Assembly (NCBI GenBank): GCA_015665275.1
Contig: JADFAL010000026.1
Location: 62,001 to 126,000, forward strand
DNA: 64,000 nt
DNA from: Flavobacteriales bacterium
GTDB lineage: Bacteria; Bacteroidota; Bacteroidia; Flavobacteriales_D; Crocinitomicaceae
Reading direction: 5' to 3'
The position numbers and the translations under genes are program-made. Of the stretch, positions 24,891 through 62,013 are shown piece after piece (positions within the stretch are counted from its first letter, which is position 1; every line of letters starts with the position of its first letter). The notes below the pieces were generated by a model that worked only from the letters and a program-made list of their open reading frames with translations, ran no database searches and had not been told where the DNA came from.

Positions 24891-25616
24891 ATGGACATTA
24901 ACACGCTATCCATTCTAATTCCTGCCTACAACGAGGAGAAAACAATACATATGATCCTTGATAAAGTCAAGGCGGTAGAGTTGATTCACGGTATTAAGAA
25001 AGAAGTAATCATAGTAAATGACTGTTCTTCTGACGATACCAAAGGAGCCGTGGAAAAATACATGCAATCCAATCCAGACCTTCCGATTTCGTACTACGAA
25101 CATGAGATTAACAAAGGGAAAGGAGCTGCACTTCATACAGGAATTCAAGAGGCAAAAGGTGATTTGTTGGTAATTCAGGATGCTGATTTGGAATATGATC
25201 CGGAAGAGTTCAACGACTTACTTCAACCTATTTGCGATGATTTCGCAGACGTGGTGTACGGATCTCGATTCATTGGAGGGAAACCACACAGAATTTTGTT
25301 TTACTGGCACTCGATCGGAAATAAATTCCTGACAAAATTGTCAAACATGTTTACCAATTTGAATCTTACGGATATGGAAACGTGTTATAAAATGTTCCGT
25401 ATTGACATCATTCAAGGACTTTCTTTGAAGGAGCAACGATTCGGATTCGAGCCGGAAGTAACGGCTAAAATTTCTCGCAATAAAAAGATTCGCATTTACG
25501 AAGTTGGAATTTCTTACTACGGAAGAACCTACGAAGAAGGAAAGAAAATTGGTTGGAAAGATGGATTCCGTGCACTTTGGTGTATTTCCAAGTATGGTCT
25601 TTTTAAGGCAAAGTAG
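24891..25616 (+). CDS. Glycosyltransferase family 2, dolichyl-phosphate-mannose-synthase-like
   Basis: The 241-aa protein has the GT2 GT-A fold: [12 protein letters not shown] at the start, [10 protein letters not shown] (first nucleotide-sugar contact), [16 protein letters not shown], and the metal-binding DADLEYDP motif. The [18 protein letters not shown] segment is typical of DPM1/polyprenol-phosphate sugar transferases. It lacks C-terminal TM helices, so it resembles the soluble DPM1 form that transfers a sugar from a nucleotide donor to a lipid phosphate at the inner membrane. It is isolated between a gene-free region and convergent genes. Donor and acceptor cannot be read from sequence. 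Confidence 0.9.
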
Positions 25617-47136: not shown

Positions 47137-47253
47137 CACCATTTAACCTATACTTCAAGAAAAAAAGACGGTTCATCATGTAACTTTACCGCCGGTAATG
47201 TCTCTTAAGGGTAGAGGAAACTCAATGCATTACATTTATAAAAAACTTTGCGC

Positions 47254-49572
47254 ATGAAATTGCTTTTGACTGCAGTCACTATTCTCCTGACAACGGTTGC
47301 ATTCTCCCAAAACTACACCATCAGCGGATCGGTGAAAGATTCCACCAACGGTGAAGACCTATACGGTGCTCAAATCAAAGTGAAAGAACTCGAAAACGTC
47401 GGTGCTCTAACCAACGCGTATGGATTCTTTTCCCTCACCCTCGAAAAGGGCAGCTATACTTTGGTTTTCCGGGCTTCAGGATTCGATACCAAAGAAGTGA
47501 AAATCGATCTTTCGGAAGATATGAAGATTGATCTCGAATTGAACATCCCGAAAGAAGTTCAGGAAATTGGACCCGTGGTTGTCAATGCGGAAAAAGAGAA
47601 CGACAACATTACCTCTTCCGACATGAACGTGACGAAGTTCACTCCCAAAGATATAGCAACCATTCCCGTGTTGTTTGGCGAGCAAGACATCATGAAAACC
47701 TTACAACTAACACCAGGTGTGAAAGGCGCTGGAGAAGGCAATGCTGGTTTCTACGTTCGAGGTGGTGGGGCAGATCAAAACTTGATTCTTTTAGATGAAG
47801 CTCCTGTTTATAATGCATCTCACCTACTCGGGTTTTTCTCAGTATTTAACTCGGATGCCATCAAAGATGTTTCACTCTATAAATCTGGAATCCCAGCCGA
47901 ATACGGTGGTCGTGCATCTTCTGTAATGGACGTTAAAATGCGTGATGGAAACAAAAAGAAATTCGGTGCATCCGGAGGAATTGGATTGATTTCCTCCCGA
48001 TTGACGGTGGAAGCACCCATTGTAAAAGACAAAGGCTCATTCATTCTTTCAGGTCGACGTAGTTATGCCGATTTGTTCTTGAAATTATCCCCTCAAGAAG
48101 ACCAACGAAATACGCAATTGTTCTTCTACGATTTGAACATGAAAGCCAACTATAAAATTGGAGAGAAGGATCGTATTTTCTTATCAGGATACTTCGGTAG
48201 AGACCGCTTTGGATTCAGTGACATCTTCGGATTCAACTGGGGAAACCAAACGGGAACCTTGCGCTGGAATCACCTCTATGGAAATAAATTGTTCTCAAAC
48301 ACATCTGTTGTTTACAGTAATTTCGACTACGAATTCAACATTGGTGCTGGAGATGACGGTTTTGGTGTAAAATCCTCGATTCAAGACTTCAACTTAAAAC
48401 AGGATTATTCATACTACGCCAACAAAAACAACTCGATCAAATTCGGAATGCAAGGCATTCACCACACTTTCCGTCCGGGAGCCTTAACGGGCGGGAACGA
48501 TTCATTCAATGAAGTAATCCTCGATCCTCGTTATGCGCTAGAGGTTGGAGCCTACATTCAGAACGAACAGAAAATCGGAACGCGATTCAACATTATGTAC
48601 GGTGTGCGCTACTCCGGATTCAATTTGATGGGAGATGGAAAAGCGTATGAATTTGATGAAGAGGGAACTTTGACGGATGAACGCGAATACGGAAGCTGGG
48701 AATCAATTAAATATCATCACGGTTTGGAACCACGCTTCTCGGCAAGCTATGTTCTTTCAGAAAACAATTCGATCAAAGCATCTTATAACCGGAACTTACA
48801 GTACATCCACCAGTTATCAAACTCAACAACAAGCAGCCCTACCGATGTTTGGGTACCAAGCTCGAACAACATTGCACCTCAAATCGCCGATCAGGTGGCT
48901 ATGGGGTATTATCACAACCTCAAAAACAACATGTACCGCATCTCCACAGAGGTGTATTACAAAGATTTACAGAACCAAATTGATTACCGAAACGGCGCAC
49001 AAACAGTTCTAAACGACCTTGTTGAAGGAGAATTGGTGTTTGGAGACGGACGCGCTTACGGACTGGAAGTTCAAATCGAAAAGAAGAAAGGGAAATTAAC
49101 TGGATGGATTAGTTATACACTTTCGCGCTCGTTGAGAACCTTTGCTGATATCGATAATGGAAAAGAATTCCCGGCACGTCAGGATAGAATTCATGATGTT
49201 TCGGTGGTATTAATGTACAAATTGAGTGATGCGATTGCACTCTCCACTAGCTGGGTCTACTACACAGGAGACGCGGTTACCTTCCCTTCCGGGAAATACG
49301 AAGTTGGAGGGGCAACACTTCCATTCTACACAGAACGAAACGGATATCGATTCCCAGATTATAACCGATTGGACCTCGGGTGTACTTGGTACTTCAAAGA
49401 GCGTGAGAAATTCGAACACAACTTGAACTTCTCTATTTACAACGCCTACGCTCGTGAGAATGCTTTCACTATCACTTTTGAAGAAAACGAAGAGACCGGA
49501 GAAACACAAGCAGTACAAACCACATTGTTTCGTTTGATCCCTGCCATTACGTACAACTTTAACTTGAAATAA
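47254..49572 (+). CDS. TonB-dependent receptor with carboxypeptidase-regulatory-like N-terminal domain
   Basis: From the ATG at 47254 the protein has 772 aa, a signal peptide (MKLLLTAVTILLTTVAFSQ), and a CarboxypepD-reg-like beta-sandwich (YTISGSVKDSTNGEDLYGAQIKV, ALTNAYGFFSLTL). The plug domain has QLTPGVKGAGEGNAGFYVRGGGADQNLILLDEAPVYN, and the C-terminal part forms a 22-strand barrel closing with an aromatic-Lys end (PAITYNFNLK). No SusC SSD marker is obvious, so this is the general CarboxypepD-reg/plug type rather than a SusC polysaccharide receptor. Import is powered by TonB/ExbBD. The substrate is unknown. It lies 1 bp before a DUF4249 lipoprotein gene, the usual partner order. Confidence 0.92.
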   Translation: MKLLLTAVTILLTTVAFSQNYTISGSVKDSTNGEDLYGAQIKVKELENVGALTNAYGFFSLTLEKGSYTLVFRASGFDTKEVKIDLSEDMKIDLELNIPKEVQEIGPVVVNAEKENDNITSSDMNVTKFTPKDIATIPVLFGEQDIMKTLQLTPGVKGAGEGNAGFYVRGGGADQNLILLDEAPVYNASHLLGFFSVFNSDAIKDVSLYKSGIPAEYGGRASSVMDVKMRDGNKKKFGASGGIGLISSRLTVEAPIVKDKGSFILSGRRSYADLFLKLSPQEDQRNTQLFFYDLNMKANYKIGEKDRIFLSGYFGRDRFGFSDIFGFNWGNQTGTLRWNHLYGNKLFSNTSVVYSNFDYEFNIGAGDDGFGVKSSIQDFNLKQDYSYYANKNNSIKFGMQGIHHTFRPGALTGGNDSFNEVILDPRYALEVGAYIQNEQKIGTRFNIMYGVRYSGFNLMGDGKAYEFDEEGTLTDEREYGSWESIKYHHGLEPRFSASYVLSENNSIKASYNRNLQYIHQLSNSTTSSPTDVWVPSSNNIAPQIADQVAMGYYHNLKNNMYRISTEVYYKDLQNQIDYRNGAQTVLNDLVEGELVFGDGRAYGLEVQIEKKKGKLTGWISYTLSRSLRTFADIDNGKEFPARQDRIHDVSVVLMYKLSDAIALSTSWVYYTGDAVTFPSGKYEVGGATLPFYTERNGYRFPDYNRLDLGCTWYFKEREKFEHNLNFSIYNAYARENAFTITFEENEETGETQAVQTTLFRLIPAITYNFNLK

Positions 49573-49573
49573 G

Positions 49574-50365
49574 ATGAGAAAATTAGCATACATTCTAGGA
49601 TTAGTAGTATTGGCAAGTTCTTGTCAGAAGGTAATTGATGTTGATTTGAACGAAGGAAATCAAAACATCGTAATTGAAGGAAATTATACCGGCGAAGACA
49701 GTACGGTTCGCGTTGGTGTGACCTTGACTTCTAGTTATTTTAACAACGATCCTTCGCCGACAGTAGATAACGCATTGGTCACGATTACCGATCAAAATGG
49801 TATACCAACGGTAGTGCCTTCAGCTGGAAACGGACAATATGTATTATCAGGATATGCTCCGGATTATGGAACGAGTTATACGCTTTCGGTCGTTTACGAT
49901 GGGGCAACGTATAGTGCGGCGTGTAGCATGCCAACACCTGTGCAAATGGACCCGATTACCTATCAATATCTTGACGGATTCTTCGGAGCTGACCCAGGTT
50001 ATGTATCCATCCTAAATTTCCAAGACCCGGAACTTACAACAGATTTCTATCAAATCGTAATTACTGAAAATGGAACTTCGTTTGACCGAATTGATCAAAT
50101 CCAGACACAAGATGATGCTTTAACGAATGGGAATTATATCCAACGTCCTCTTTTCTTGAACGAACTGAGTCTTTTGGGTGACACTATTTCCTACGAATTC
50201 CGCACCGTGGATAAGGCCATTTTCGATTATACATTCCAAGCAGCAGATATTGCTGGAGGATCAAATTCTGCGGCTCCGGGAAATCCCATTACGAATTGGG
50301 ACAATGGAGCTTTGGGATACTTCAATGCGTATGGTGTGAGTAGAGATAGTGTGGTGATTCAGTAA
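49574..50365 (+). CDS. DUF4249-family lipoprotein, partner of the TonB receptor
   Basis: The 263-aa protein has a lipoprotein signal (MRKLAYILGLVVLASSC, Cys17) and QKVIDVDLNEGNQNIVIEGNYTGE, then GVTLTSSYFNNDPSPTVDNALVTITDQNG, a typical DUF4249 start. Further features are SYTLSVVYDGATYSAACSMPTPVQMDP and GFFGADPG. DUF4249 proteins almost always follow CarboxypepD-type TonB receptors in Bacteroidota, suggesting an outer-leaflet role like that of SusD in substrate capture. The role is inferred from context; the biochemistry is not known. Confidence 0.88.
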   Translation: MRKLAYILGLVVLASSCQKVIDVDLNEGNQNIVIEGNYTGEDSTVRVGVTLTSSYFNNDPSPTVDNALVTITDQNGIPTVVPSAGNGQYVLSGYAPDYGTSYTLSVVYDGATYSAACSMPTPVQMDPITYQYLDGFFGADPGYVSILNFQDPELTTDFYQIVITENGTSFDRIDQIQTQDDALTNGNYIQRPLFLNELSLLGDTISYEFRTVDKAIFDYTFQAADIAGGSNSAAPGNPITNWDNGALGYFNAYGVSRDSVVIQ

Positions 50366-50580: not shown

Positions 50581-51945
50581 TTACGCAGGATATAAAAAAG
50601 TATTCTTCCGATTTACAAGTTTCCAACTCGGTATCATCTCGATTATGGCCAAGAGGAAAACAACACCATACTCTAAATAAATCCATCCTTCGGGAATTTC
50701 ATACGTTTCGCCATAAGATACATACGTCCCAAAAATTAGTACGGACCAAACCAAAGTATAAATGGTACGCGTTAAAACAGCCAGCGGAATGAGAATTGTG
50801 ATGTACCACGGATGAACAATTGGAGAAAAGAAGAAATAAATGGTAAAGAGCAGCAATAGCGTCCACTCCATTGAGCGTTTCTGAAGAAACACAACGGCAG
50901 CGCCGAGAATGATAGAAAAGTACGGTAAGATTCCAGCCACCGTTTCACGTGGTTCATGCCAATGGTATTTGGTCGCAATTTCAAGCAATCCGTAATACGT
51001 TGCAGAGTTGAAAGCAAACAAATTGAAGAACAAATCGGTGCTCTCGCCAAAGTTAGATAGTGTCTCGAAGTCCACAATTGTCCTGAAGAAGAGGACCGCA
51101 AGCAAAACAGAAACAACACTCGTCAACAACCACTTTTTCCAATGGAATTGTAGAAACAAAGCGCCCAAAAGAAAAATGGGAGTCAGTTTCGTCATGATGG
51201 CTAAGGAAGCCATTACTGCTGTTTGGAACCACTTATTCTTGTAGGCATAATACAATGTCGCTAAAATGAAGGTGATTGCAATTCCCTCGAAATGCAGATT
51301 TCCGACCAACTCCAGAATCACGAACGGATGCCACCAATACACTGCTATCAAAGATTCACGATTTTGACGTCGAAGCAAGGCGCGTAGTAAGAAGAACGAA
51401 ACCACCTCGGCGATGAGCATCCAAACGCGAAGGAGAACCAAATTGCCGTTGTTGGGCGATCCTACGAAGGTACCCGAATAAAAGATCCACTGATTGACAG
51501 CCGGATACACCGAATAATAGTGCTTCGAATTCATCCCTCTCGGAAATGCATCGCTATGCGCATGAAGCAGCTCATCGTATTTCTCTTGATTATCTCCGCT
51601 TACATTTTCTTTGTACTCATCTGGAACAAAAGCGAAAACATTGTAGCCGTCTCTCAACAATTCACCATCCCATGTAAATCGATAAAAATCATCCGATAAT
51701 GAAGGAGTAGCGAACAACAGGACAAGTCGAAAACCTAAACCGATCGAAAATAATATCCACCAATCTTTTCTAGGTAACAGGCGGTAGATGAGAATGCACA
51801 ATAGAATCAGCGCACCGAAAACAGAGAAAAGAATAAGGTGATCTGTTCTTGGCGTTTCATAGCCCAGCCAATAGAATCCGAATACAGCGAGTGCTAATAA
51901 GGGAACAAGCAACCACCATTTCAATTTGTCTGAGAAGTGCATCAA
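50581..51945 (-). CDS. Polytopic membrane glycosyltransferase, GT-C-like (mannosyltransferase type)
   Basis: The 454-aa protein has about 11 hydrophobic segments. After the third helix comes FATPSLSDDFYRFTWDGELLRDGYNVFAF, the acidic extracytoplasmic loop usual in GT-C enzymes, with the D-D-x-x-R-x-x-W-D pattern; VWMLIAEVVSFFLL and KLTPIFLLGALFLQF follow. The loop NSKHYYSVYPAVNQWIFY is also typical. GT-C enzymes use lipid-linked sugars (for example polyprenyl-phosphate-mannose) on the outer face of the inner membrane. Last gene of the five-gene envelope unit; start overlaps the MORN gene stop as ATGA. Acceptor unknown; the MORN or barrel partners may be targets. Confidence 0.75.
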   Translation of the reverse strand: MMHFSDKLKWWLLVPLLALAVFGFYWLGYETPRTDHLILFSVFGALILLCILIYRLLPRKDWWILFSIGLGFRLVLLFATPSLSDDFYRFTWDGELLRDGYNVFAFVPDEYKENVSGDNQEKYDELLHAHSDAFPRGMNSKHYYSVYPAVNQWIFYSGTFVGSPNNGNLVLLRVWMLIAEVVSFFLLRALLRRQNRESLIAVYWWHPFVILELVGNLHFEGIAITFILATLYYAYKNKWFQTAVMASLAIMTKLTPIFLLGALFLQFHWKKWLLTSVVSVLLAVLFFRTIVDFETLSNFGESTDLFFNLFAFNSATYYGLLEIATKYHWHEPRETVAGILPYFSIILGAAVVFLQKRSMEWTLLLLFTIYFFFSPIVHPWYITILIPLAVLTRTIYTLVWSVLIFGTYVSYGETYEIPEGWIYLEYGVVFLLAIIEMIPSWKLVNRKNTFLYPA

Positions 51946-52937
51946 AGAGGAGCGTAGTCGGTTAACTTATCGTTCTTGAATTGACACTTGTATCGCTTCC
52001 CGTTGTATTTACAAATGGCCGCTCCGTGCTTTTGACCTTGCTTCCAACTACCATCGTAAGAATCACCGGAAGACTTATTCAATTTTCCTTTTCCGTCTTT
52101 CAATCCGTAGGCGAAATTCCCGCGGTACTCATCTCCATTCGGATATTTCTTCCATCCACTACCATGCGGCTTGTCTTTTTTGAAGGTTCCGATGTAATGC
52201 GCTCCGTCCGACCATTTCAAGTTTCCTTCACCCGATTTCACTCCGAAGTAAAAATTCCCGTAGTAATACGATCCGTTTGCATAAGAATAAGAAGCCGTTC
52301 CGTGCAATTTCCCCTTTGACCAATTTCCTTTAATAGCCACCCCAGATTTTGTAGTGAAAACTCCATAGCCGCTTCGGTCTCCATTCTTGTAATGTCCTTT
52401 GTAAAGGTCTCCATTCGGTCTGGAGTAGATCCCATATCCGTAAAAAGCATCGTTTTGAAAGTCTCCCTGATAGGTGTCGTTGTTCGACATGGTATACTTA
52501 CCAAACCCGTGCTTCTTTCCATCTTTCCAATCCCCCGAATATTGAATGCCATTGGTTTTTTTTAACGTACCATAGCCATTTCGCTTTCCATATGCATATT
52601 CCCCTTCGTAGGTATTTCCATTGGCGAAGAACATTCGGCCGAATCCGTGCAATGCATAATTCTGGAATTCTCCTTTGTACACGTTTCCATTGTCGTAATT
52701 AAAGACTCCGTAGCCGTGCATCTTTCCATTCTTCCAAGCACCAACGTACAATTCACCTTGAGGATTTGTGTACTTTCCTTGCCCTTCCGCTTGTCCGTTC
52801 TTCCATTCTCCAAAGTACTGTTCACCTTTCTCATTTCGATAGGTTCCGATACCGTTTTCACAGTCTCCACTGATGCAGCCCGCAATTGCCGGAGATGACA
52901 CCAGTAGAAAAAATGCTATATAGAAGAATTGTTTCAT
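51942..52937 (-). CDS. Secreted MORN-repeat protein (about 12 repeats)
   Basis: A signal peptide (MKQFFYIAFFLLVSSPAIAG) is followed by about 12 MORN repeats of 23 residues: GEQYFGEWKNGQAEGQGKY, GELYVGAWKNGKMHGYGVF, GNVYKGEFQNYALHGFGRM and so on to the end. MORN repeats give an elongated beta-hairpin stack that can bind lipid or protein surfaces. Exported MORN proteins in Bacteroidota are common but uncharacterised. The start follows the BamA-like stop with no gap, and its stop overlaps the GT-C-like start. Confidence 0.85.
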   Translation of the reverse strand: MKQFFYIAFFLLVSSPAIAGCISGDCENGIGTYRNEKGEQYFGEWKNGQAEGQGKYTNPQGELYVGAWKNGKMHGYGVFNYDNGNVYKGEFQNYALHGFGRMFFANGNTYEGEYAYGKRNGYGTLKKTNGIQYSGDWKDGKKHGFGKYTMSNNDTYQGDFQNDAFYGYGIYSRPNGDLYKGHYKNGDRSGYGVFTTKSGVAIKGNWSKGKLHGTASYSYANGSYYYGNFYFGVKSGEGNLKWSDGAHYIGTFKKDKPHGSGWKKYPNGDEYRGNFAYGLKDGKGKLNKSSGDSYDGSWKQGQKHGAAICKYNGKRYKCQFKNDKLTDYAPL

Positions 52938-54200
52938 TTAAAAAAATTGACCGAATCCAACGACAAAAGCCCCCTGGTTCAGATCGGTTAAATTGAATGA
53001 ATAATCAAATCGAATGATAGTGCGATACAACCATTTGGAATGCAGTCGAACCCCGAGACCAGCATATCGATAAATCATGGTTTCATCCACGAAATCGCGG
53101 AAATCCCAGCCTGCCGCACGAAGCGTTCCAACATCCGAAAAAACAGTTGATTGCAATGTAAACCATTTATTATCCCAAACGGAATGATGGTACTCGAAGT
53201 TGAATATGATTTCAGCTGTTCCTCGCGCTACACGGTTTCCACTTCCACGGATATTTTCGTAGTTATCAATTAGGAAAGGTGCAAACGGACCTTCGTTATT
53301 TGTAGCAATACCCAGTCGGTTGCGAACGGCTAGGTTACCTCTCTTCCCAATCAATTTGAACCAACGCAAATCATTTGTGACCTTTACAAATGGTTGCTGG
53401 AATCCGAATGTTTCAATGTACTCAGCATGTACCCGATTCATGATTCCTTCCCGCCGTTCATTATGGAAATTAATGCGTCGCCACTGTGTTCCGGCCCGAA
53501 CTTGATATTTGTGAAAGGCGAAACGTTGTCCGTTATTGATCATCATGTCGAAAAATCCGACAGAGTCCGAAATATTTTGATACCGTTCGTACATGTACAT
53601 GCCTCCAACGCTCACATTCCAGTTGCGTTTCAACCAATATCTTCCCTCTGCAGAAATATGATAATTATCGAAGTTGAAATCACGCGGCCCTTCATCGAAA
53701 TAAAGCGGTTCTACAGAAGCATACGTTCCTAATACGACTGAGTGTCCTGTTTTTCCATTTCGATGGACAGGAGACGAATGAAAGATTTTACCAGAATGAC
53801 GATCATAAAATCGATATTCTAGTCCGAAGTGTTGACCGCGGCCTAAGAAATTGATGTCGGTAACTCCAACGGAGAAATTGATATTCTGGCTGGATGCTAC
53901 GTTTCCAAACGAGGGATATACATAGCGTGCCTCATCGATAATGTAGCAGAGAACAGACTTCTCGTTGATTGTGTCCATTTTCCATGTAACATCGAAAAAC
54001 ATGTTGAGATCTTTCAACTCTTGAACATCGGCTAGGATGGCATCCTCTTGAATGGAATCTCCCGGCTCTACACGTACCCATTGCATCACGTAATCAGACT
54101 TTGTTCTGCGCAAGTTTTCAATCGCAATGCTATCCACGCGAACTTGTCCGAAACTTTGAAGTCCGGCAAATAAAAAAAATATGCAAATTAACTCACGCAT
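52938..54200 (-). CDS. BamA/TamA-like (Omp85) outer-membrane protein with one POTRA-like domain
   Basis: From the ATG at 54200 the protein has 420 aa and a signal peptide (MRELICIFFLFAGLQSFG). A single POTRA-like domain follows (VRVDSIAIENLRRTKSDYVMQWVRVEPGDS, AILADVQELKDLNMFFDVTW), then a 16-strand-like barrel with INFSVGVTDINFLGRGQHFGLEYR, IRGSGNRVARGTAEIIFNFEYHH (the RGxGN gate region) and GAFVVGFGQFF at the end. It is smaller than BamA (about 800 aa), so a transport or assembly helper for its neighbours is inferred. An upstream ATG at 54272 adds 24 residues that precede the signal. Starts 4 bp after the lipoprotein gene. Confidence 0.82.
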   Translation of the reverse strand: MRELICIFFLFAGLQSFGQVRVDSIAIENLRRTKSDYVMQWVRVEPGDSIQEDAILADVQELKDLNMFFDVTWKMDTINEKSVLCYIIDEARYVYPSFGNVASSQNINFSVGVTDINFLGRGQHFGLEYRFYDRHSGKIFHSSPVHRNGKTGHSVVLGTYASVEPLYFDEGPRDFNFDNYHISAEGRYWLKRNWNVSVGGMYMYERYQNISDSVGFFDMMINNGQRFAFHKYQVRAGTQWRRINFHNERREGIMNRVHAEYIETFGFQQPFVKVTNDLRWFKLIGKRGNLAVRNRLGIATNNEGPFAPFLIDNYENIRGSGNRVARGTAEIIFNFEYHHSVWDNKWFTLQSTVFSDVGTLRAAGWDFRDFVDETMIYRYAGLGVRLHSKWLYRTIIRFDYSFNLTDLNQGAFVVGFGQFF

Positions 54201-54204
54201 TACA

Positions 54205-54936
54205 TTAGAACGATGACGTTCCGAAGGTACGAACCCAATTGTTTTCTCCCACTCCCATATTCGTATAAACATACGAATCCTGCGCGTCCAAGGTTGGACT
54301 CATTGTAGGTGTTACGTTCAGCACAAAATTGGACAAATCATAGAAATCCCACTCTTTCTCTTCCGTGTAAACACCGGATACAAAATCATTCGCTGCGTTT
54401 GAAATCAACGAGAAATAAATCACATTTCCTTTCACTGGATCGGCGAACCAATTGAATTCTGGTTGTAGGGAATCGCCCATAACGGCAAGCTTATTTGAAA
54501 TATCAACTGTTGGATGCGAATCCGCGCGAAGTAAAATAGGATCACTCACATGATACGAAAATCCCGTGGAATAAGTCACAATCACCCATTTATCTGTATA
54601 ATATTTTGAAACAGTGAACCGCCCCATTCGACCATTAAACAATACTTCCGGCGCTTCATTTACTTTAGAGTAATAACACAAATCATCTTTCTTCCCTTCT
54701 TCCGATTTCACATAAAGAGACGCTGTTGAAGCTCCATCCACATTGTAATAGAAAATACTTATTGGTCGTTCTGTACTCCCCATGAATTCCTCCATGTTCC
54801 CTGCTGCGCATGCAATGAGGAAATCTTCAGTTCTTCCTTGATTTTCTGCTACAAACTGTTCTAAATCACTTTGCGTCGGTTTCTTATTGCACGCAGCGAG
54901 AACCAAAACGCCTAGTAGGATTGCTGTTATTCTCAT
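54205..54936 (-). CDS. Lipoprotein of unknown function (243 aa)
   Basis: A lipoprotein signal (MRITAILLGVLVLAAC, Cys16) is followed by a helical LEQFVAENQGRTEDFLIACAAGN segment and a beta-rich core (FYYNVDGASTASLYVKSEEG, FNGRMGRFTVSKYYTDKWVIVTYS). I do not recognise a domain. The start overlaps the DUF547 gene stop by 4 bp and the stop lies 4 bp before the BamA-like start, so it is expressed as part of the same unit. A role as a periplasmic or outer-membrane accessory of that unit is inference. Confidence 0.6.
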   Translation of the reverse strand: MRITAILLGVLVLAACNKKPTQSDLEQFVAENQGRTEDFLIACAAGNMEEFMGSTERPISIFYYNVDGASTASLYVKSEEGKKDDLCYYSKVNEAPEVLFNGRMGRFTVSKYYTDKWVIVTYSTGFSYHVSDPILLRADSHPTVDISNKLAVMGDSLQPEFNWFADPVKGNVIYFSLISNAANDFVSGVYTEEKEWDFYDLSNFVLNVTPTMSPTLDAQDSYVYTNMGVGENNWVRTFGTSSF

Positions 54937-56528
54937 TTCGTGACATATTTAATTCCAAGATTGAATGTTGATCCTAATCCTGTATTTACGCCGCGAACAA
55001 AGTTGGTATACAAGAGCTCGATAGTAATATTCGATACCGGTTGATACTTGACACCAGCACCCAAAGATGTCCAATTTGCCGGGATCACCCAATCCGTATT
55101 CGCTTGTTCAAAATCCAAGGTTGATCTTGGTGTGTGCTGTGCGATTCCATAAACCGTCCACTTGGAGGTTGGAAAGTAACTTCCGATCACTGTCATCGGC
55201 ATGTCAATGTGCGATATTTGATTGCTCCGGTATTTGAATCGAATCAAGGCGTCGATTTCTGTGAACAATTGAAACTTGTTCCATGTCTTGGTATAGAAAA
55301 TTTGATTCCACATTGTTACGCGATCCCAATCGGCCCAATACAGCGATTCTGATCCGTTTGATCCTTCTGGATTTGTAATCGTTGGAATATAAACGGTTGA
55401 TTGAATGGAAAGATCTTTTACGGATTTAAAAGGAGCCACTTTTGCTCGAAGTCCAACAGAGGTGAGTCCAAATCGTGTAGAATCTGTATTCGTGAACGCG
55501 AAAGGTGCCGCTACTCCTGCTGCTGTAGTATCAGGTGTTCTTCCCGAAGCTCGGAGGTTTAGATCTAGTCCTACATTGATCCGCCGCTTTTTATCAACTC
55601 CAATTGAGAATTGCAGTAGAGAAGTCATAAACGTTTCTCGCGTGCCTGAGAACTCATTTCCGAGCCAATTCCCTCTCGTTTGGGTATATACCGTGTTGAA
55701 CATCGTATAATCCATTTGACCACGACCTAACAAGGTTCCTGCAGTAAATGTTTGTAGGTTGATGACATTTCCGCCTGTATCGAGTCCACGTTTTGGTGTA
55801 AGCATGGGAACTTCCTTTAAAACTTGGCTCTCATTAAGGGTCCAATCGTAATCGTAATATTCCACCTTCGTGCTTTCAAAAGGCGTAGTTCTGAATCCGT
55901 TGATATACTCCAACACAGCATCTGTATTTTTGCCAAAATCGGTTCCGTACCACTGAAATATTTGAGACAAATACACTTTTCCATCTTCTTCGTAAACAAA
56001 TCCTTCGTTATTCAACGCGTTCGCCGTTCTGCTGTTTAAGTGCTCTTCCAAAGTCTCCGGTTGAAACGCTTTGTTATCAATCGGTGGGCAATCAATAGCT
56101 CCACACACCAATACAAAATGGTAACGTGGATCTGGATACTTTTTTCGCATAATGTTATTCTCCAAATGATTCAGTGTGATGCCTTCGCCCCCAACATTAA
56201 ATGTGTTCACCTCGAAGAATCCTGAAACGGACATGGGAGATGTTATAGGATAGTTATCGATCACTTGCTTGATCACTACCAAATTGTATGCGTTGATTAG
56301 AAAGGCCTTCCGCGTATTTGGTCCCGCGCTTGCATAATCGGCTGTTCCAACAAATTCCATGAGCGTGTCCAACTCTGCGGTATTCATGTTTTGATAATCC
56401 ACGCGACCAAATGAGACGTGTTCACCAAGGAACGCATCTGTGCGATCGAAGAAATCATTAAAATTAGAGATTTGGGCATTTGCTGCCGCAGACGCCAGAA
56501 CAACCAGCGCGAGTAAGATTTTCTTCAT
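54933..56528 (-). CDS. DUF547 protein fused to an outer-membrane-like beta-barrel
   Basis: The 531-aa protein has a signal peptide (MKKILLALVVLASAAANA), then a DUF547 domain (about residues 30-235: FLINAYNLVVIKQVIDNYPI, GITLNHLENNIMRKKYPDPRYHFVLVCGAIDCPPI). The remaining 290 residues are alternating aromatic/polar strands (SLLQFSIGVDKKRRINVGLDLNLR, VGLRAKVAPF, FQLFTEIDALIRFKYR, TIELLYTNFVRG) ending FNLGIKYVTK, as in an outer-membrane barrel. DUF547 proteins normally stop near 250-270 aa, so this looks like a fusion. It heads the five-gene envelope unit. Substrate and role unknown. Confidence 0.75.
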   Translation of the reverse strand: MKKILLALVVLASAAANAQISNFNDFFDRTDAFLGEHVSFGRVDYQNMNTAELDTLMEFVGTADYASAGPNTRKAFLINAYNLVVIKQVIDNYPITSPMSVSGFFEVNTFNVGGEGITLNHLENNIMRKKYPDPRYHFVLVCGAIDCPPIDNKAFQPETLEEHLNSRTANALNNEGFVYEEDGKVYLSQIFQWYGTDFGKNTDAVLEYINGFRTTPFESTKVEYYDYDWTLNESQVLKEVPMLTPKRGLDTGGNVINLQTFTAGTLLGRGQMDYTMFNTVYTQTRGNWLGNEFSGTRETFMTSLLQFSIGVDKKRRINVGLDLNLRASGRTPDTTAAGVAAPFAFTNTDSTRFGLTSVGLRAKVAPFKSVKDLSIQSTVYIPTITNPEGSNGSESLYWADWDRVTMWNQIFYTKTWNKFQLFTEIDALIRFKYRSNQISHIDMPMTVIGSYFPTSKWTVYGIAQHTPRSTLDFEQANTDWVIPANWTSLGAGVKYQPVSNITIELLYTNFVRGVNTGLGSTFNLGIKYVTK

Positions 56529-61350: not shown

Positions 61351-62013
61351 TTAAGGAATCACAATTTTGTCTCCCAAATAAGTAGGCTCCACTCCGAGGT
61401 TAACCTCTGTATAAGCTTTACCCCTCGCGAAAAACTCCCGTAATTTGGTTCGAATACCCCCTGCATAATTAACTCCCTTGGCGTTGAACCCGTAAGCTTG
61501 AATTCCAAATCTTCTGGCGATATAAACGGCACGTTCATTCTGAAACTCCTGAGAAATAACAACAAATTTCTGCTGTCCAAATACCTTCTTAGCGCGAATC
61601 ATTGAATCATATGTGTCAAAACCGGCATAATCTAAATAAATCGAACTGTCAGGAATTCCAGCCTCTATAAGCGAAATTCGCATATCTTGAGGTTCATTAT
61701 AATCACTTCGACCGTTATCACCACTAATCAGTAAATACTTTATCTTTCGAGCCTCATATAGGCGAACAGCTGCATCAATTCGATTTTGAAAATACTCGTT
61801 TATACTTCCGTTACTGAGATATTTCGAAGTTCCGGGAACGATACCAACGTTGACAGAAGGTAACCTATTCATGTCACTCGTAACATAATCATTGCTGACA
61901 TACTCAACGCGGAAATGTGCGAAAAGGAAAAAGAGAAAAACAATACAGGAAATGACCAGAAAGAAACGGATAGCTTTCCTTCGACTTGGCAGGTAATCTT
62001 TGAAATTCTTCAT
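61351..62013 (-). CDS. SanA/YdcF-family membrane protein (DUF218)
   Basis: The 220-aa protein has one N-terminal TM helix (AIRFFLVISCIVFLFFLFAHF) and a DUF218 domain with VNVGIVPGTSKYLSNGSINEYFQNRIDAAVRLYEARKIKYLLISGDNG, DMRISLIEAGIPDSSIYLDYAGFDTYDSMIRAKKVF, and FVVISQEFQNERAVYIARRFG. The PGTSKYLSNG block is characteristic of SanA, a membrane protein linked to outer-membrane integrity and vancomycin exclusion. The reaction is unknown. The gene is bracketed by 17-bp direct repeats (61281 and 62100), hinting at insertion or duplication. A longer relative is at 32163. Confidence 0.88.
   Translation of the reverse strand: MKNFKDYLPSRRKAIRFFLVISCIVFLFFLFAHFRVEYVSNDYVTSDMNRLPSVNVGIVPGTSKYLSNGSINEYFQNRIDAAVRLYEARKIKYLLISGDNGRSDYNEPQDMRISLIEAGIPDSSIYLDYAGFDTYDSMIRAKKVFGQQKFVVISQEFQNERAVYIARRFGIQAYGFNAKGVNYAGGIRTKLREFFARGKAYTEVNLGVEPTYLGDKIVIP

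Follow-up and report, generated by a model that had tools for sequence, protein, structure and literature searches.

What might five tightly spaced genes for envelope proteins of quite different kinds do together? The question is raised by a 64,000-nucleotide stretch of the genome of a Flavobacteriales bacterium of the Crocinitomicaceae (assembly GCA_015665275.1, 3.64 Mb), namely positions 62,001 to 126,000 of contig JADFAL010000026.1 (G000:C4:62001-126000 in our numbering), hereafter called the window. The five genes are on the minus strand, from 56528 down to 50581. They code for a DUF547 domain and a predicted 12-strand outer-membrane (OM) barrel on one chain (54933..56528), a lipoprotein of 243 residues with no known domain (54205..54936), a mini-Omp85 protein with a signal peptide, one POTRA domain and an Omp85-type barrel (52938..54200), a secreted MORN protein with 11 repeats (51942..52937) and a GT87-like GT-C glycosyltransferase (50581..51942); the membership of the last two is uncertain. 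The successive spacings are -4 bp, +4 bp (counting from the Omp85 ATG at 54200, its open reading frame (ORF) being open to 54272), 0 bp and -1 bp with the GT-C ATG at 51942, or -4 bp with a TTG at 51945, which confirms the compact arrangement described in an earlier, sequence-only reading of the window. That reading proposed a machine for assembling or glycosylating a protein of the cell surface, possibly the MORN protein. A scan for promoters and terminators gave signals no better than those of shuffled sequence. Signal peptides were assigned by eye throughout.

Our analyses show that the DUF547-barrel, Omp85 and lipoprotein genes group together beyond chance. Our preferred, still tentative answer to the question, which we hold at somewhat less than even chances, is that the genes are part of a system for glycan synthesis and OM export. 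The five genes of the window look like a small, locally condensed form of a more extensive set found in Bacteroidota, which probably serves sugar-polymer synthesis at the inner membrane and transport to the surface. Linkage, co-occurrence and the splitting or fusion of domains were observed directly, the barrel and DUF547 structures are predictions, and the biochemical steps are our interpretation.

Each of the five proteins was used as a query on the host genome and 59 relatives, 33 of them of the same genus. Matches were found in 51 (DUF547), 47 (GT-C), 24 (MORN), 19 (Omp85) and 7 (lipoprotein) of these 60 genomes, many of those to GT-C and DUF547 being shorter or more distant paralogues. 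The sequence-only reading had suggested surveying genomes for a conserved order of the five genes, with dispersal in relatives as the sign that they do not belong together. None of the 59 relatives has the five genes in the order of the window, and at the genus level they are dispersed. The DUF547-barrel and Omp85 genes co-occur in 15 of the 59 and are adjacent in all 15, some being cut by contig ends and one fragmented. No MORN, GT-C or lipoprotein gene stands beside the pair in these 15 relatives; matches elsewhere are on other contigs or hundreds of kilobases away. Similarly, the 10 relatives with a near-full-length MORN match have no other part of the unit within 1.5 kb of it. One MORN locus, L099 of genome G016, has a weak match to the Omp85 profile nearby (21.5 bits).

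Omp85 occurs without the barrel in G037 and G048 (27% identical) and in G017, and the barrel without Omp85 in G032, G041, G052 and G057, the first two of these at contig ends. The G017 gene is a relic with four stops (G017:C102:45519-46471) in a genome with no DUF547-barrel match, as if both had been lost together. In G041, the GT-C gene is 6.7 kb from the barrel gene, and at L130:1002-4958 of that genome the lipoprotein gene precedes three ORFs matching the GH113 profile. A second mini-Omp85 subfamily (26-29% identical; L126, L127 and L146) has no DUF547 partner and adjoins an 837-850-residue protein whose start looks, by eye, like a carboxypeptidase-regulatory domain. In several Crocinitomicaceae, genes that we named DnaE2- and ImuB-like by eye lie beside the pair; we took them to be local neighbours.

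We then turned to the whole phylum, with an even draw of 296 Bacteroidota genomes, each at least 90% complete, which were searched at E ≤1e-20 (≤1e-10 for the lipoprotein). Scoring was limited to the top few candidates in each genome (4, 6, 9 and 5 with alignments A1, A2, A4 and A5, respectively), so that absence in this sample is not strict. Barrel matches were hand-picked as those covering model positions from approximately 250 on. The barrel and Omp85 are each found in 12 genomes and both in 11, with G134 having the barrel alone and G250 Omp85 alone; in all 11 they are 0.05-1.9 kb apart (Fisher 4.5e-18, a value that overstates independence because the sampled genomes are related, as do those below). 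The lipoprotein is found in five of the 296 genomes, in all five within 2 kb of both other genes. We had considered it a chance insertion, since it occurs in 7 of the 60 genomes and beside the pair in the window alone; this idea was overturned by the phylum sample and by a homologue in a Flavobacteriaceae operon. The DUF547 domain and GT-C are found in 91 and 92 genomes, respectively, and together in 64 (Fisher 1.1e-21). They are within 15 kb of each other in 26 of the 64, or in 25 of 63 without the window's own genome, compared with approximately 0.7 expected for 4-Mb genomes. Every one of the 12 barrel genomes has GT-C, as has every one of the 12 Omp85 genomes; in seven of each set the distance is at most 15 kb. 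Thus, the idea that the set is more than a chance neighbourhood holds for the barrel, Omp85 and lipoprotein genes, which co-occur and co-locate across the phylum; for the MORN and GT-C genes of the window it is uncertain.

When the DUF547-barrel alignment was used to scan named genomes, 175 loci were obtained, of which the best 80 by score were analysed with flanks of up to 6 kb. The profiles used to label neighbours were built from clusters in these same loci, and therefore all label counts are descriptive. Omp85 is present in 58 of the 80 loci and in 57 of the 79 with a called anchor; L193 was left out of the anchor counts as an ORF had been called on the opposite strand, and Omp85 adjoins its match too. 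Among the 57, Omp85 is on the same strand in 56 and is the very next gene in 47, no more than 20 bp away in 26 of these 47. In nine of the remaining ten a GH113 gene intervenes, together with the lipoprotein gene in eight. Other labels are GT2 (20 loci), oxidoreductase (18), GH113 (16), MORN_2 (16), FeS (15), DPM-like (15), lipoprotein (12), DUF2141 (9) and GT-C (3). The divergence of the barrel correlates with that of Omp85 (r 0.868, 57 loci), as does that of DUF547 with the barrel (r 0.751); shared ancestry was not removed, and common descent alone also yields such correlations.

A link to glycan synthesis is seen in eight of the 80 loci, from Flavobacteriaceae by title, which have Omp85, lipoprotein, GH113, oxidoreductase, FeS, MORN_2, DPM-like and GT2 genes all present. 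Their layout is that of two divergent operons, DUF547-barrel-GH113-lipoprotein-Omp85 on one side and oxidoreductase-FeS-MORN-GT2-GT2 on the other. The latter codes for a pyridine-nucleotide oxidoreductase, a NapH-like 4Fe-4S membrane protein, a MORN_2 protein, a DPM/AglJ-like GT2 and a GT2 resembling cellulose and poly-N-acetylglucosamine (PNAG) synthases. A GT87-like GT-C gene adjoins the divergent operon or stands within 15 kb, and GT-C is within 15 kb in all eight genomes. The complete locus is present in Croceitalea dokdonensis and Aureivirga marina, and the greater part of it in Flavobacterium micromati. A MORN-type gene, GT-C and further glycosyltransferases in or near the divergent operon are found in Flavobacteriaceae as well as in a small number of other Bacteroidota, and a MORN_2-type protein occupies the corresponding place in 16 of the 80 loci. 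In a hand-chosen set of 38 named genomes, corresponding to 38 of the 80 loci, GT-C is found in 36, and in 13 it is within 15 kb of the DUF547-barrel gene. Four same-genus genomes (L228, L230-L232) have a DUF547-only gene, a DPM-like GT2, a GT2 and GT-C in one run. The cellulose/PNAG-synthase-like GT2s are nearest to CelA and PgaC, far below the cut-offs of these models, and match BcsA chains in the Protein Data Bank (PDB); the two scanned with Pfam (L121 and L149) have no PilZ row. The DPM-like GT2 is nearest to AglJ of archaeal N-glycosylation.

Two other upstream arrangements were seen in the 80 loci. A DUF2141-type gene directly precedes the DUF547-barrel gene in L149, L152, L153, L154, L158, L159, L160, L161 and L192, and is itself preceded by a GT2 gene in six. 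In the Saprospiraceae-type loci L194, L197, L203, L209, L210, L211, L222 and L225, genes coding for 112-130 residues occupy that position. The L194 product matches thioredoxin and has no CxxC, and that of L203 has no Pfam match; as these small thioredoxin-like genes were not seen in the other groups, we dropped them as a part of the system.

The protein models bear on what the OM half might do. The first protein of the unit has a DUF547 domain at approximately residues 20-235 (PF04784; E 4.4e-22, 78.8 bits vs a cut-off of 27) and a barrel at approximately residues 261-530. In its AlphaFold2 model, built with 17 sequences (mean predicted local distance difference test score (pLDDT) 80, predicted template-modelling score 0.51), 12 barrel strands were counted, in agreement with the barrel end foreseen in the sequence-only reading. 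The nearest fold is that of the COG4313 channel Pput2725 (4rl8; Z 22.8, root-mean-square deviation (rmsd) 3.3 over 251 residues), followed by FapF (5o65; Z 21.2, rmsd 3.2 over 247 residues). The likeness is one of fold only, as there is no Pfam row for the COG4313/Phenol_MetA_deg sequence family at E ≤0.1. Neither the DUF547-barrel protein nor the DUF547 domain matches the PDB by sequence. Modelled alone with 75 sequences, the domain has a pLDDT of 97. The best match of this model to the PDB has an E of 1.8 with Foldseek and a Z of 5.5 with VIA; no fold relative was thus found, which does not prove a new fold.

All 75 DUF547 sequences share N59, Y61, N62, E103, H117, C122, C127, P128, S168, W173, Y207, W209 and N212 (add 20 for the residue of the window protein). 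The invariant His and Cys residues suggest a thiol-type enzyme. We dropped an assignment as a papain-like peptidase as the domain model has no fold match, an outcome that neither excludes such a peptidase nor shows a new fold. In 10 of the 80 named loci, DUF547 and the barrel are encoded separately, by genes that both have a signal peptide and lie 9-33 bp apart. In these loci (L178, L179, L180, L183, L186, L187, L188, L189, L198 and L208), the gap is divisible by three in all ten, and the two genes are in the same frame in all eight pairs checked for it. We had also considered a type Va autotransporter, with passenger and barrel on one chain as in the window; the occurrence of separate genes makes it unlikely. 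The open-access literature searched yielded no bacterial function for DUF547, the titles concerning plants or other eukaryotes; a Klebsiella phage paper proved to be a false match, to DUF5476. A distant hint comes from plant co-expression data. The DUF547 gene AT5G60720 shares co-expression lists of wall transcription factors with CESA4, CESA8 or IRX10 (PMC3677987), and DUF547 appears in a xylan co-expression table (PMC2990762).

The Omp85 protein matches the BamA model TIGR03303 over positions 321-722 of 741 (E 4.5e-17) and scores 61.7 bits, vs an equivalog cut-off of 297.15, which is not the full-length score of a BamA orthologue. Sequence and profile matches to a POTRA domain and an Omp85 barrel place it in the Omp85 superfamily, with the POTRA match (PF07244) just short of the cut-off at 20.3 vs 21.3 bits. 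It has the motifs IRGSGNR and, at the C-terminus, GQFF, and its alignment profile (A2) matches BamA chains with a best E of 1.1e-12; a scan of genome contigs with the single Omp85 protein gave no matches. For the lipoprotein, no Pfam domain scored above cut-off, and a search of the PDB by sequence gave nothing. It is 34% identical (E 1e-36) to a lipoprotein encoded between GH113 and Omp85 genes in an uncultured Croceitalea.

The MORN protein matches PF02493 in 11 stretches (E 2.7e-51). As its ordinary signal peptide precedes a recurrent CxxGxC pair, kept in the nine relatives inspected, it is probably soluble, a correction to the earlier reading. GT-C matches GT87 (PF09594) with 27 bits vs a cut-off of 25, and the relative in L121 with 37.3 bits. 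In NCBIfam its best match, to a family for cell-surface glycopolymers, reaches 34 bits vs a cut-off of 150; its profile matches GPI mannosyltransferase 1 (E 1.4e-5), and it also weakly matches the mannosyltransferase model TIGR03459. The motifs LSxDxxRFxWD and HPWY are invariant in its alignment (A5). The nearest copies are G020:C3 (47%) and G000:C20 (45%), both linked to a GT2 gene and an MMPL-like transporter gene. Five genomes, including the window's own, have a GT2/GT-C pair with a 722-735-residue MMPL/RND-like transporter and a GDSL-like gene, both named by eye (L137-L141). The protein types assigned in the sequence-only reading are borne out by the DUF547, MORN, POTRA/BamA-type and GT87 matches, with the correction that the barrel has a COG4313/FapF-like fold.

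In the system that we envisage, a polyprenyl-phosphate hexose synthase-like GT2 would make a lipid-linked sugar, and a cellulose/PNAG-synthase-like GT2 would build a chain and extrude it at the inner membrane. GT-C would add sugars at the periplasmic side, and the DUF547 domain would process or attach the chain. The 12-strand barrel would be the conduit through the OM, with the one-POTRA Omp85 dedicated to inserting or gating it, or possibly forming part of it, and the lipoprotein as a subunit of the barrel/Omp85 complex. The MORN protein might be a periplasmic binder, and GH113 would trim the polymer in flavobacteria. We infer the direction of transport to be export. GH113 enzymes are otherwise beta-mannanases, and this, together with the weak mannosyltransferase matches of GT-C and a remark in PMC9032380, suggests a mannose-like product. 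In the window's contig, a DPM-like gene 25 kb from the unit (24891..25616, plus strand; DPM profile E 4.4e-72) is a possible donor-making enzyme judging from its sequence, and the host has GT2 copies on two other contigs, G000:C81 (with a DPM-like gene) and C20.

Several observations weigh against this proposal. No GT2, GH113 or redox gene adjoins the window unit, the rest of the genome not having been searched for oxidoreductase, FeS and GH113 genes. In the named loci, the lipoprotein is present in no more than 12 of 80; Omp85 is the sole labelled partner in 30, and 11 have no labelled partner within 6 kb. Omp85 is missing from 22 of the 79 anchored loci, seven of which have less than 1 kb of sequence left. 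The barrel, with 12 strands, is narrower than known polysaccharide-export barrels, and in fold it most resembles an amyloid exporter and channels of a family that has been implicated in uptake. The membership of the window's MORN and GT-C genes is the weakest part. GT-C is on another contig in five of the 12 barrel genomes and likewise in five Omp85 genomes, and 80 of the 92 GT-C genomes of the phylum sample have no barrel, which makes GT-C a more general part. GT2 genes are within 1.5 kb of GT-C in 25 of the 30 GT-C loci read, and none is beside the window GT-C. Finally, the window MORN belongs to PF02493, vs MORN_2 (PF07661) for the form in the operon elsewhere.

These last points also favour an explanation in which the DUF547-barrel protein, the lipoprotein and Omp85 alone make up one machine, MORN and GT-C being chance passengers on the same transcript. 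It is consistent with the scattered MORN and GT-C matches in the 15 relatives with both genes of the pair, and with the window GT-C being nearest to GT2- and MMPL-like-linked copies yet having no GT2 gene beside it. Nevertheless, the 0 and -1 bp spacings argue against passengers, as do the recurrence of MORN-type and GT-C genes in or near the divergent operon elsewhere and the proximity of GT-C to the DUF547-barrel gene in the 13 hand-chosen genomes and in G041. We regard this explanation as unlikely, if the most serious of the alternatives.

The first proposal, in which a surface protein (perhaps MORN) is glycosylated and assembled, appears improbable. GT-C enzymes can glycosylate proteins, and the kinship of the DPM-like GT2 with AglJ would fit a protein target. 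However, the linked GT2s resemble polymerizing synthases and GH113 is a family of polysaccharide hydrolases; together with GT87, these linked genes point to a polysaccharide rather than a glycoprotein. MORN homologues are unlinked in relatives, and nothing found supports the MORN protein as the glycosylated substrate.

A role in protein secretion or assembly is equally doubtful. Omp85 would insert or open the barrel, which would secrete a polypeptide in the manner of FapF, with DUF547 in the role of FapD and MORN as a possible cargo. The Fap system likewise combines a 12-strand barrel of similar fold with a linked, possibly thiol-dependent enzyme, and Fap export requires a periplasmic cysteine peptidase (PMC5557850). 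Moreover, the known Omp85 proteins handle proteins (PMC4104836), and the secreted repeat proteins that recur in the locus are of the MORN type. In contrast with Fap, Omp85 and glycosyltransferases adjoin the barrel here, and no match between DUF547 and C39 peptidases was found, which does not exclude a relation. The annotated recurrent neighbours are mostly glycosyltransferases, GH113 and redox genes, no systematic search for cargo genes having been made.

The barrel fold raises a further, very improbable alternative, namely that a carbohydrate or a hydrophobic compound is taken up through a COG4313-like channel and degraded by GH113. The COG4313 family is implicated in uptake (PMC4493636), and next to the unit, convergent with it on the plus strand (47248-50365), the window has a gene resembling a TonB receptor gene (by eye), together with a DUF4249 lipoprotein gene. 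Nevertheless, the linked operon is biosynthetic. There is no SusCD or TonB gene among the annotated recurrent neighbours, part of the clusters being annotated, and Bacteroidetes GH113 are rare in predicted polysaccharide utilization loci (26 of 661; PMC9032380). The barrel also differs from COG4313 channels in being fused to or paired with DUF547 and Omp85.

Glycan synthesis and export, our preferred reading, invites comparison with synthase-dependent exopolysaccharide systems such as Bcs, Pga, Alg and Pel. As in the definition of these systems (PMC7112194), the Flavobacteriaceae locus has a GT2 synthase, a glycoside hydrolase, a lipoprotein and an OM barrel. GT2 and GH113 are found in 20 and 16 of the 80 named loci, respectively, and neither is at the window unit. 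The known export barrels have 16-18 strands (PMC9601211) rather than 12, the five window proteins have no TPR row, and the scanned GT2s have no PilZ. Here there are in addition DUF547, Omp85, MORN, DPM-like, GT-C and redox genes. By analogy, the locus may work like a synthase-dependent system, and we do not class it as one because of the strand number, the missing TPR and the absence of PilZ on the scanned GT2s.

Omp85 proteins with other partners provide a second comparison. The BamA-like subfamily of Heinz and Lithgow (2014; PMC4104836) has one to three POTRA domains and an Omp85 barrel, like the one-POTRA protein here. What sets the window-type Omp85 apart is its linkage with a single partner barrel and with a glycan locus. 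The TamL, TamL2 and TamA proteins of F. johnsoniae have three POTRAs (PMC12045153). The beta-barrel assembly machinery (BAM) complex of that species likewise pairs Omp85 with a further barrel, the FadL-type BamG (PMC12611786). The subunits named in the text consulted are BamD, BamG, BamH and BamP; DUF547 is not mentioned there.

A third comparison is with the GH113 enzymes of clade 5 in Bacteroidetes (PMC9032380), which share phylum and GT2 proximity with those found here; the clade-5 assignment of the latter is by phylum alone. In that 2022 study, none of the substrates tried was accepted, and because of the GT2 neighbours the authors suspected that these enzymes help to construct or remodel a polysaccharide for biofilms or storage. 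The accessible part of their account does not mention the OM half (DUF547-barrel, lipoprotein and Omp85), GT-C, MORN or the redox genes. We found no description of the present system in the open-access literature searched. The link between GH113 and GT2 is thus already known, and the OM half is what our analysis adds.

Most useful, in our view, is the finding that the DUF547-barrel, lipoprotein and mini-Omp85 genes are linked across the phylum and tied to a glycan-making operon. It provides DUF547, GH113 clade 5, an orphan lipoprotein family and the one-POTRA Omp85 with a concrete and testable context, and predicts that the linked GH113 acts on a glycan made by the same cell. A more far-reaching version, to which we give a small chance, is an undescribed OM glycan export route of Bacteroidota in which Omp85 and the 12-strand barrel with a new-fold DUF547 would form the translocon. 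In this version DUF547, which in plants is listed together with genes of cellulose and xylan synthesis, would be a general polysaccharide-processing enzyme. It would be unusual for an Omp85 protein to be linked with a pathway that makes a sugar polymer.

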